The notes beneath the pieces are model-generated. The model saw only the letters and a list, made by a program, of their open reading frames with translations, made no database searches and was not told the origin of the DNA. The position numbers and the translations under genes were made by a program. Below, piece by piece: positions 12,739-16,330 of a DNA stretch of 64,000 bases; position 1 is the stretch's first letter, and the number at the start of each line of letters is the position of its first letter. Source of the stretch: Roseovarius gaetbuli (GTDB lineage Bacteria > Pseudomonadota > Alphaproteobacteria > Rhodobacterales > Rhodobacteraceae); NCBI RefSeq assembly GCF_900172365.1, contig NZ_FWFJ01000005.1:1-64000 (forward strand). Reading direction: 5' to 3'.

Positions 12739-12846
12739 TCAGCGCAGCGCAAAGGCGATCACAGCCAGACACAGGCAGAGATTCACCACCAAGATCACGA
12801 TGCCTACCCGGCGCCGCAGGGTCATCTTTTTGAACGGATTAATCAT
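12739..12846 (-). CDS. 35-residue membrane peptide coupled to the ferric-reductase-like gene
   Basis: A short frame starts at an ATG (12846-12844) that overlaps the stop of the preceding minus-strand gene by eight bases (ATGATTAA). It encodes MINPFKKMTLRRRVG followed by one hydrophobic helix and ends ALR. The basic N-terminus and single helix predict a small inner-membrane protein with its N-terminus in the cytoplasm. The overlap implies translational coupling to the flavoprotein gene. No family is recognised. The bidirectional terminator begins 22 bases downstream. Confidence 0.55.
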   Translation of the reverse strand: MINPFKKMTLRRRVGIVILVVNLCLCLAVIAFALR

Positions 12847-14143
12847 AATCGAACCGCTCCGACAGGATGCGATCAGCGGGCGTGCCCCGCTTGATCAAAT
12901 GGGTTTCTACGATGTCCATCATCACCGTCGGCCCACAGACCACGAACAGCCAGTCCTTGAATTCCTGCGGCGCAAAAACCCGGTCCAGAAGCGCGCCGTC
13001 GATGAAACCCGTCTCGCCCGTCCATCCCTCTGGTGGCTCTGACAGGACATAGGTGACATCCGCCACACCAAGCTCGTCGCGAAAGGCAATCTGGTCGGCT
13101 TTCCTATTGCCATAGACAAGCCTGAGCTTGCGCGGATCACCCGTAAGGCGCATCTGCCTGAGAATACCCAGAAGCGGCGCGAGGCCGACACCGCCGGCAA
13201 TCAACGCGACGCCGGGTTCGGTGCGCCCTTCAATCGCGAGACTTCCATAGGGGCCGTCAAGATAGGCGATCGTGCCCGGCTTTATGTCACCAACCCCGCG
13301 CGTAAAGTCGCCAAGCTCCTTGATCATGAAGGAAACCTCTGGTCCGCCCGACGGCGCCGAGCAGATAGAAAACGGGTGTTCGTTGATCGAGAACGGGCTG
13401 TGCCCGACCGTCAGCCAGACAAATTGCCCGGCCTTGTAGGCAAGCCCCGAATGCGCATCGGGTGCGAGGGTCAGTTCCCACTGCTTGGGCGTCAACCGCG
13501 TCACAGAGGCGACGCGCCATGCCTGCCTGCGACCCTGAAACGGCACGATCAGGTAGACATAGAAAAGTGATCCAACCGCCAGCCCGGTCATCACCAGCCA
13601 GATCCAACTCATCACCGGCAGAGACCCATAGCGGCCCGCATGGGTGGCGTGATGCAACAAAAGCAGTGCGATCAAAACGGCACCGATCCCATGCATCAGC
13701 CGCCACACCTCGTATTTATGGTCAAGCTTGGTGCGCCCGATCGCCAGAAAAACAAGACTTGGAAGAATGAGGAACGCGGCAATGCCACTGGACAGGTCGG
13801 CAATATCAGTGGTGAGCGTAAGCTGGCCGGTCGGGTCCCAGGGTCGTGGCCCCCCGGACGGCGTAGCGCGATACAAGAACGGATGCAGCAGCGCAAAGAT
13901 CAGAGCCGTGCGCGCCATGATCTGATGAAACCGCATGGTCACATCCATCCCGACGCCATGCGAAATCTTCCTGAAACGGCCGGAAAGAACAAACTCTGCG
14001 AGGATCATCGAAAAGGCGAGAATGCCAAGGCCCGAGGCAAGCTCTTGATACACCGGGCGCGACGGCCCGCCGGTCAGAAAAGAGAGCACCAGCGGCAGCG
14101 CGACGACGCCGAGATAAACGAGGATCAAAAAGAGAGGCTTCAT
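12839..14143 (-). CDS. Ferric-reductase-like transmembrane flavoprotein (FAD/NAD-binding)
   Basis: This 434-residue protein has an N-terminal ferric-reductase-type membrane domain (about 1-210, several helices, with paired histidines such as MRFHQIM, ALLHPF, LMHGIG and LLHHATHAG as likely heme ligands). An FAD-binding ferredoxin-reductase-type domain follows (about 215-310, with HPFSICSAP) and then an NAD-binding domain (GGVGLAPLL, VVCGPTVMM). Such proteins pass electrons from NAD(P)H through FAD and heme across the membrane to metal or oxygen. It lies downstream of a TetR gene on the same strand and upstream of the coupled small membrane peptide. The true acceptor is unknown. Confidence 0.8.
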   Translation of the reverse strand: MKPLFLILVYLGVVALPLVLSFLTGGPSRPVYQELASGLGILAFSMILAEFVLSGRFRKISHGVGMDVTMRFHQIMARTALIFALLHPFLYRATPSGGPRPWDPTGQLTLTTDIADLSSGIAAFLILPSLVFLAIGRTKLDHKYEVWRLMHGIGAVLIALLLLHHATHAGRYGSLPVMSWIWLVMTGLAVGSLFYVYLIVPFQGRRQAWRVASVTRLTPKQWELTLAPDAHSGLAYKAGQFVWLTVGHSPFSINEHPFSICSAPSGGPEVSFMIKELGDFTRGVGDIKPGTIAYLDGPYGSLAIEGRTEPGVALIAGGVGLAPLLGILRQMRLTGDPRKLRLVYGNRKADQIAFRDELGVADVTYVLSEPPEGWTGETGFIDGALLDRVFAPQEFKDWLFVVCGPTVMMDIVETHLIKRGTPADRILSERFDYD

Positions 14144-14275: not shown

Positions 14276-14893
14276 TCAGACGCCGTAGCGCGCCATGAAC
14301 ATGTCAACAACGCCAGTGACCACGCGGTCGATATCGCCCTCTTTCGGAGCGTTGCAAAGCCCGCAAAGGCAGCGCACGAAAATATCGCATTTGCAGAGTT
14401 CGCAAAACTGTTCCGCCGCAAGATCCATATCGTCGATCTTGAGCGCGCCGGTTTCCACGTAGTGGCCCATGACCATGCCAAGCCGCTCGCGCAGCAATTC
14501 CGGCCCTGAGGCATAAAACCGTTTGCCAAGCTCGGGAAAGCGGTGGGATTCAGAAACGCTGATCCGGTAAACCTGAATGCCGAAATCCGACAGGAAAAAC
14601 CGCACGACACGATCCGCGATATCGCGCAGGGTGACGGCGCAGGGGGCGTTCAGATCAAATTCGCGCAGCGCCTCTTCGGCCTGGCGGTTGCATTCGATCC
14701 GCGCCACCTCAGAGAACAGCAGGCGTTTGTCCGGGAAATAGCTATAGAGCGTGGCCTTTGACACCTGCGCCTCGCGTGCGATGTCATCAACGCTTGCGCC
14801 CTCGAAACCATCACGCATGAAGACGTGCCGTGCCCCTTCGAGCACTTGATCAAACTTGCGCCCTTTTTTGATTTCTGCGGCCATTGCCGACAT
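14276..14893 (-). CDS. TetR-family regulator with a six-cysteine cluster
   Basis: This 205-residue TetR/AcrR regulator carries its DNA-binding helix-turn-helix in residues about 15-60 (ASVDDIAREAQVSKATLYSYF). The ligand domain resembles the AefR-like C-terminal type. Unusually, six cysteines lie at 164, 167, 169, 175, 177 and 180, in the symmetric spacing CxxCxC-x5-CxCxxC. That arrangement could bind a metal or iron-sulfur cluster or act as a thiol switch. The start at 14893 has GAGGGG just upstream; an internal ATG at 14884 is possible. Likely targets are the three matching inverted repeats at 15194-15267 and the operon it belongs to. Confidence 0.85.
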   Translation of the reverse strand: MSAMAAEIKKGRKFDQVLEGARHVFMRDGFEGASVDDIAREAQVSKATLYSYFPDKRLLFSEVARIECNRQAEEALREFDLNAPCAVTLRDIADRVVRFFLSDFGIQVYRISVSESHRFPELGKRFYASGPELLRERLGMVMGHYVETGALKIDDMDLAAEQFCELCKCDIFVRCLCGLCNAPKEGDIDRVVTGVVDMFMARYGV

Positions 14894-15019: not shown

Positions 15020-15178
15020 TCATTTATTAATGCCGCTGTTGCCTTGGGTCACCGGCGCGGGCGCAGGATCGGGATAGGTCAGAACGGGCGTGAGCGTGCT
15101 CATGTCGATGCCAAAGGCCAGAATCGGCGAGGCGGCCAGAGAAAGCGAGAGAGCGATTGCGGTGACGATCTGTTTCAT
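15020..15178 (-). CDS. 52-residue predicted secreted peptide
   Basis: The frame starts at 15178 behind the ribosome site GGAG (seven bases away) and ends with TGA at 15020. The product has a basic start (MKQ), a hydrophobic core (about 4-20) ending in a plausible signal-peptidase site after ILA, and a short proline-rich tail (PDPAPAPV). It is too short to assign to a family. It is the first gene behind the triple inverted-repeat promoter and lies 126 bases ahead of the TetR gene on the same strand, so it may be its main target or the first cistron of the operon. Confidence 0.55.
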   Translation of the reverse strand: MKQIVTAIALSLSLAASPILAFGIDMSTLTPVLTYPDPAPAPVTQGNSGINK

Positions 15179-15193: not shown

Positions 15194-15267
15194 TGAACTG
15201 TTTGGTTCAGAATCATATCTAAACGGTTTAGTTTACTTTTCAAGTAAAAAATAAACTAATCGGTTTA
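15194..15267. promoter_or_regulatory. Three copies of TRAAC-N6-GTTYA, candidate TetR operators
   Basis: TGAAC-TGTTTG-GTTCA is at 15194-15209, TAAAC-GGTTTA-GTTTA at 15220-15235 and TAAAC-TAATCG-GTTTA at 15252-15267. All have the same 5-6-5 inverted-repeat layout, with centres 26 and 32 bases apart. They lie just upstream of the secreted-peptide gene (minus strand) and upstream of mbfA (plus strand). For the minus-strand promoter, TTGAAA (15243-15238) and TATGAT (15217-15212) are possible -35/-10 boxes with a long 20-base spacer, and the middle repeat sits between them. TetR proteins typically bind 15-17 bp palindromes of this kind. Confidence 0.7.
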
Positions 15268-15323: not shown

Positions 15324-15338
15324 TTAGAACCATTCTAA
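15324..15338. promoter_or_regulatory. Irr-like iron control element upstream of mbfA
   Basis: TTAGAA (15324-15329) and TTCTAA (15333-15338) form a perfect palindrome around CCA. This matches the rhizobial/roseobacter ICE box bound by the heme-sensing iron regulator Irr. It ends 14 bases before the mbfA start. mbfA is a known Irr target in Bradyrhizobium and Agrobacterium, where Irr blocks expression under low iron. Confidence 0.7.
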
Positions 15339-15352
15339 GGTAAGAGGCAGTC

Positions 15353-16330
15353 ATGATTCCCGGTATCCCGTCACGTCGACGTTTCAAGGATTTGTCAGAA
15401 CAGGAAATTCTGGCGCTCGCCATTTCGTCGGAAGAAGACGACGCGCGTATCTATCGAAGCTATGGCGAGTTGTTGCGCGGCGAATATCCCGATACCGCCA
15501 AGGTCTTCGATGGCATGGCCGCCGAAGAAGACGAACATCGAAAGCGCCTGATCGACCTGCATTCCAAGCGTTTCGGTGACGTGATCCCGCTTATCCGGCG
15601 CGAGCATGTTGCCGGGTTTTATGCCCGCCGCCCGGTCTGGCTTATCGAAAACCTCGGAATCGAGCGTATTCGCGCCGAGGCCGAAGGGATGGAGCGCGAC
15701 GCCGAGGCGTTTTACATCAAGGCGGCGCATCGCACGACCGATGCCGATACCCGCAGATTGCTTGGCGATCTCGCCGCCGCCGAGGCCGGGCATCAGGCCC
15801 GCGCGGGCGAACTTGAGGCCGAGCACCTTGACGAGGATTCGCTTGCCGCAGAAGAGCGCACCTCGAAACGCGCCTTTCTTCTGACCTGGGTACAGCCGGG
15901 GCTTGCCGGTCTGATGGATGGCTCTGTGTCGACGCTCGCGCCGATCTTTGCCACCGCTTTTGCCACCCAAGACACCTGGACCACCTTCCTCGTCGGCCTT
16001 GCGGCCAGTGTGGGCGCGGGCATTTCGATGGGCTTTACCGAGGCTGCCAGTGACGACGGTGAATTGTCTGGACGCGGTAGCCCGATAAAACGCGGCTTTG
16101 CGGCCGGGATCATGACCACGCTTGGCGGGCTTGGCCATGCCTTGCCCTACCTGATCCCGGATTTCTGGACTGCTACAATCGTCGCCTTTGTTGTTGTCTT
16201 TATCGAGCTTTGGGCGATTGCCTGGATTCAGAACAAGTTCATGGACACACCATTTTTCCGCGCCGCCTTTCAGGTGGTGCTTGGTGGCGCCTTGGTCTTT
16301 GCGGCGGGTGTGCTTATCGGGAGCGGCTAG
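15353..16330 (+). CDS. mbfA: Membrane-bound ferritin / iron exporter MbfA (Er-VIT1 family)
   Basis: This 325-residue fusion has an N-terminal erythrin/rubrerythrin-like diiron domain (about 15-165) with the ligand pairs ExxH seen in EEDEH and AEAGH. The C-terminal membrane domain is of the VIT1/CCC1 type (about 175-325, about five helices, with GLMDGSVSTLAP at its start). In rhizobia MbfA exports iron and protects against iron and peroxide stress. GAGG at 15343-15346 fixes the start. The Irr-like palindrome just upstream predicts iron control, and the three TetR-type repeats further upstream suggest a second input. Confidence 0.88.
   Translation: MIPGIPSRRRFKDLSEQEILALAISSEEDDARIYRSYGELLRGEYPDTAKVFDGMAAEEDEHRKRLIDLHSKRFGDVIPLIRREHVAGFYARRPVWLIENLGIERIRAEAEGMERDAEAFYIKAAHRTTDADTRRLLGDLAAAEAGHQARAGELEAEHLDEDSLAAEERTSKRAFLLTWVQPGLAGLMDGSVSTLAPIFATAFATQDTWTTFLVGLAASVGAGISMGFTEAASDDGELSGRGSPIKRGFAAGIMTTLGGLGHALPYLIPDFWTATIVAFVVVFIELWAIAWIQNKFMDTPFFRAAFQVVLGGALVFAAGVLIGSG

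Follow-up and report, generated by a model that had tools for sequence, protein, structure and literature searches.

MexL and NalC of Pseudomonas aeruginosa are efflux regulators, and to our knowledge neither of them carries a cysteine cluster. The key cysteine of NemR is C106. TetR repressors controlled by cysteines also include AltR, in which C100 has this role (PMC13178969), and DitR, which is controlled by C92/C127 (PMC9342713). FrrA of Bradyrhizobium responds to flavonoids and is encoded next to the RND pump FreCAB (PMC4070704), and AefR of Pseudomonas fluorescens is a flavonoid-sensing repressor of the RND pump MexEF-OprN (PMC11915855).

The regulator described here is encoded in a stretch of 64,000 nucleotides from Roseovarius gaetbuli (contig NZ_FWFJ01000005.1, assembly GCF_900172365.1), hereafter the window. 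It resembles FrrA (PDB 6g87, 6g8g, 6g8h) in about 34% identity over the full length, in a TetR_C_7-type fold and in a cysteine aligned with its own C68. However, the C-terminal stretch of FrrA that aligns with the cysteine cluster is free of cysteines, and whereas the flavonoid-binding FrrA adjoins its pump genes (PMC4070704), the pump operon attributed to the window regulator is unlinked to tetR. AefR belongs by name to the same Pfam C-terminal domain family and represses an RND pump, but it has another regulon and no cysteine switch is described in the text of the paper (PMC11915855). MexL and NalC (PDB 8wrf, 8ke8) display 26-31% identity and align with the structural model with Z scores of 20.1 and 18.7, although their targets are unlike those of the window regulator. 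Finally, NemR, AltR, and DitR would offer a mechanistic parallel if the cysteines of the window protein sense electrophiles; nevertheless, their key cysteines are placed elsewhere and they are not its closest relatives.

All things considered, the window protein is quite probably a repressor of the FrrA/AefR/MexL type that controls its own operon with a peptide gene (pep-tetR), an RND efflux operon, and an oxidoreductase, and its six clustered cysteines represent the extreme, in one clade, of a segment that tends to gain cysteines.

Gene, protein, and predicted structure

Comparative sequence evidence establishes the membership of the protein in the TetR family, and its domains file it as an AefR/FrrA-like regulator. 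In the Pfam search, both the TetR_N helix–turn–helix domain PF00440 (62.3 bits, cutoff 24) and the AefR-like C-terminal domain TetR_C_7, PF14246 (120.2 bits, cutoff 22, E 6e-35), exceed their gathering scores. FrrA, MexL, and NalC, with which it shares its fold, head the Foldseek and VIA-align lists (Z 17.6-20.1), and also lead the sequence searches. Homologues of tetR are widespread: matches at E <= 1e-30 were obtained for 277 of the 395 genomes sampled from the family, and at E <= 1e-60 for 67 of the 84 from the genus. The features of the locus are collected in Table 1.

Table 1. Features of the tetR locus, with positions in the window
Feature	Position	Strand	Basis or remark
tetR, 205-aa TetR regulator	14276..14893	-	ATG start at 14893, stop at 14276; Pfam PF14246 + PF00440; closest PDB relatives FrrA, MexL, NalC
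Six-cysteine segment, residues 164-180, CxxCxC-x5-CxCxxC	14354..14404	-	Exact spacing; conservation counts; AlphaFold2
pep, 52-aa ORF, signal-peptide-like N-terminus	15020..15178	-	Putative first gene of a pep-tetR operon
TetR operator 1 (predicted), TGAACTGTTTGGTTCA	15194..15209	.	Motif match
TetR operator 2 (predicted), TAAACGGTTTAGTTTA	15220..15235	.	Motif match
TetR operator 3 (predicted), TAAACTAATCGGTTTA	15252..15267	.	Motif match
Irr-type (ICE) palindrome TTAGAACCATTCTAA, assigned to mbfA and not to TetR	15324..15338	.	Motif; none expected by chance
mbfA, iron exporter, divergent neighbour, not among the predicted TetR targets	15353..16330	+	NCBIfam NF045676, E 3.5e-169
Ferric-reductase-like flavoprotein, downstream of tetR	12839..14143	-	PF01794, PF08022, PF00175; neighbour not conserved

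The cysteines of the protein are residues 68, 85, 164, 167, 169, 175, 177, and 180. The last six of them form the cluster pointed out in the initial annotation, and its symmetric spacing is exact in the translation. The view that related TetR proteins have ordinary residues at this place agrees with the closest solved relative, since FrrA reads FLSLVRGELPLLIVLGLS there, with no comparable cysteines. In contrast, the single helix proposed for the segment finds no counterpart in the AlphaFold2 model (88-sequence alignment, mean pLDDT 91), in which a helix at 156-167 is followed by a break at 168-170, a short helix at 171-176, and a loop at 177-184. The break and the loop thus indicate that the segment is not one helix.

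The DNA pattern that corresponds to this spacing was found once in the whole genome (4.13 Mb), where a reversed control pattern gave 0 matches. Across the order, the pattern is present in 59 of 391 genomes, the reversed control being about equally frequent, and none of 30 fetched matches elsewhere in the order belongs to a TetR protein; they are out of frame, or fall in short ORFs, repeats, or proteins without real similarity.

Predicted operators and target genes

The same kind of comparison, on which the target genes and the history of the cysteines also rest, establishes the motif of the predicted operator, the 16-bp palindrome TRAACN6GTTYA. It matches three times in the window against 0.03 expected. 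Regions upstream of tetR carry it in 134 of 156 cases, and downstream control regions in 1 of 152; 58 of the 134 positive regions have three copies with similar spacing. In the window, the three copies directly precede pep, which is oriented like tetR. With a loose pattern, an ORF related to pep was detected ahead of tetR at 84 of the 156 loci. The locus adds a linked family of small, putatively secreted peptides under triple operators that is absent from Pfam and NCBIfam. This family exhibits an LTxP motif and up to three operators, and many members from outside Roseovarius also contain a T[QK]GC...C pair.

Away from tetR, the genome of R. gaetbuli contains the motif about 90-105 bp upstream of an operon that encodes a membrane-fusion protein (PF16576) together with a pump of the AcrB type (PF00873). 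The motif also immediately precedes the gene for a [2Fe-2S] protein, which is followed by the gene for a molybdenum-cofactor subunit. Within the genus, a predicted operator lies 84-114 bp upstream of the membrane-fusion protein–RND operon in 29 of 30 loci and before the oxidoreductase gene in 23 of 30. Moreover, the site before the pump operon follows the presence of the regulator: it is found in 41 of 41 genomes with this TetR versus 2 of 9 without it (50 genomes, Fisher 3.6e-7, a test that ignores the shared ancestry of the nine). One of the two exceptions (G453) has a site with an atypical centre and encodes a relative with 34% identity. Another TetR protein could read the RND and oxidoreductase sites; however, loss of the pump site accompanies loss of the window-type TetR.

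All four genomes whose proteins have the six cysteines carry the operator at the same three units, further matches being near the control count, and therefore the cysteines were added without a change of targets. The oxidoreductase site of the R. gaetbuli genome (C40; L219:4057-4572) stands directly before the pair of [2Fe-2S] and molybdenum-cofactor oxidoreductase genes. Two further operator-like sites of this genome (C59, C82) were set aside, since they are located inside coding genes.

Repression and release would be expected from the membership in the TetR family. Probably as a dimer, the regulator would bind the palindrome and repress its own operon with the small secreted peptide through three operators, as well as the RND efflux operon and the [2Fe-2S]/molybdenum-cofactor oxidoreductase. 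The repressor would be released by an inducer, presumably an organic compound that is small and toxic, which would then be exported or oxidised.

Iron-related neighbours

The initial annotation had suggested iron or redox sensing from the neighbouring genes. Nevertheless, apart from the window, a single fetched locus (L036) has the ferric-reductase-like gene beside tetR, and mbfA, a divergent neighbour of tetR in many loci, is preceded by an Irr-type box of its own. Irr binding at the mbfA promoter has been demonstrated in R. sphaeroides, where such a box contains the mbfA 5' end (PMC3413700). Genomes that lack tetR or have it at another place were selected for comparison; none of the eight mbfA genes examined there carries the TetR operator, and seven of them keep the Irr-type box. 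Since the reductase is not conserved, mbfA has an Irr-type box, and unlinked mbfA genes lack the operator, the argument from the neighbourhood fails and iron sensing on this ground was rejected. The predicted regulon, with operators at efflux and oxidoreductase genes, thus corrects a guess based on gene neighbours.

A narrower possibility is that mbfA, too, is repressed by the regulator, through the intergenic region between the divergent genes, and that iron export is thereby linked to a stress signal. The frequent divergent arrangement would suit it, as would the about 9-fold induction of R. sphaeroides mbfA with peroxide and the lack of a major role of Irr in its iron-dependent expression (PMC3413700). 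However, this link appears quite improbable in view of the unlinked mbfA genes, of the operators retained at tetR loci without adjacent mbfA, and of the 57 bp that separate the nearest operator from the Irr-type box, within which the R. sphaeroides transcript starts.

In most loci of Ruegeria (L080-L113), mbfA and the peptide gene are absent from this place, and tetR is instead divergent from the Mem_trans (PF03547) carrier gene.

Evolution of the cysteine-rich segment

Conservation was followed in 156 distinct proteins of this TetR family, 67 of them Roseovarius-like. All six cysteines occur in only 4 of the 156, which are Roseovarius orthologues with 94-100% identity, namely the window protein and those of an uncultured Roseovarius (L036), R. 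marisflavi (L037), and R. lutimaris (L038). On this count, a conserved metal site was rejected. Individually, C68 is found in 155 proteins, C167 in 154, C112 in 135, C177 in 74, C180 in 28, C175 in 27, C169 in 11, and C164 in 5. Both C167 and C177 are invariant in the 67 proteins of the Roseovarius set, in which the other segment cysteines vary, and the position of C177 is occupied by Phe in most family members outside this set.

The initial annotation had named a lack of conservation in close orthologues as refuting its proposal, and outside the clade of four species conservation does break down. Orthologues from Roseovarius with 64-77% identity have only C167 and C177 in common, and carry two to five segment cysteines in different places (e.g., ELCKSDLFVRCLCGVECD, ELCKGDLFVRSLCGMC). 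Besides C177, 18 of the 67 have no Cys at 175, 180, 181, or 183, and residues 175 and 180-183 vary widely in relatives (S, K, R, N, Q, E, D, G, A). Since the full set is confined to four species while the other cysteines come and go, the symmetric arrangement is a lineage-specific extreme rather than a conserved site.

Among the four species, tetR exhibits a dN of about 0.025-0.028 and a dS of 0.39-0.89, and is thus under purifying selection. However, no more than 18 columns vary between these orthologues, and the probability that six given sites are all constant is 0.57 without special constraint; therefore, retention of the cysteines in the clade is no proof of function. The trend at the level of the genus is stronger: Cys is involved in 24 of 226 inferred substitutions at residues 161-184 versus 18 of 1112 elsewhere (7-fold), with recurrent changes at residues 175 (8) and 180 (7); the p-value of this enrichment (Fisher 2e-9) is approximate, because the changes were counted as minima by parsimony on a single FastTree tree. 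The segment does seem to have a preference for cysteines, but no fixed geometry. Within Roseovarius, residues 161-184 have gained them repeatedly around the fixed C167 and C177, with the six found in four sister species as the extreme.

Possible roles of the cysteines

If the cysteines of the segment sense anything, modification by an electrophile or an oxidant would be the likeliest signal. In such a thiol switch, electrophiles or oxidants would modify C167 and C177, the further cysteines would contribute reactivity, and the repressor would be released, as in NemR, AltR, and DitR. The near-universal C167 (154/156), the constancy of C177 in the Roseovarius set (67/67), and the far commoner gains of Cys here than elsewhere in the protein are consistent with this role; detoxification would also fit efflux and oxidoreductase targets, and AltR (PMC13178969) and DitR (PMC9342713) are precedents for control of a TetR repressor through one or two cysteines. 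However, the 18 members of the Roseovarius set without a further Cys at 175, 180, 181, or 183 indicate that the extra cysteines are not required, and C177 is replaced by Phe in most of the remaining family; the switch is a plausible but tentative proposal. About equally likely is tolerated drift with some preference for Cys, a serious candidate although short of probable, in which positions 164, 169, 175, 180, and 181 are permissive for small or polar residues, and the codons of Ser, Gly, and Arg lie one step from Cys. The wide variation at 175 and 180-183, the constancy of the six sites, unremarkable in a clade with only 18 variable columns, and the operators kept at the same targets whatever the number of cysteines agree with drift, whereas the over-representation of changes to and from Cys, above all at 175 and 180, argues against it.

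That the six cysteines bind a metal (Zn, Cu(I)) or an Fe–S cluster and make the protein a metal or iron sensor is very unlikely. Two CxxC and two CxC elements lie within 17 residues, and the predicted helix break and loop could bring the thiols together. Nevertheless, the lack of conservation of the ligands, with the six-Cys set confined to four species, speaks against this reading, as does the absence of metal-homeostasis genes from the predicted targets (pep-tetR, the RND pump, and the oxidoreductase), mbfA having its Irr-type box and lacking a TetR operator when away from tetR. Moreover, no Fe–S or cysteine-cluster TetR regulator was found in the literature searched, a limited collection. 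It is unlikely, too, that in the four-species clade the segment of an efflux repressor became a six-thiol sensor, either a thiolate metal site or a multi-Cys redox switch, stepwise from C167 and C177; if true, this would be a TetR input of a kind not described before. The orthologues form a clean natural series of one repressor with two to six segment cysteines and the same targets, in which the origin of thiol switches in TetR proteins could be tested directly.

Two minor observations concern other cysteines. C68, C112, and C167 are the three family-wide cysteines (155, 135, and 154 of 156), but the six-Cys clade has lost C112. A separate CC pair in the region of residues 180-182 (e.g., GVNTCCPPRD) occurs in L014, L016, L019, L020, and L035, on a non-Roseovarius branch.
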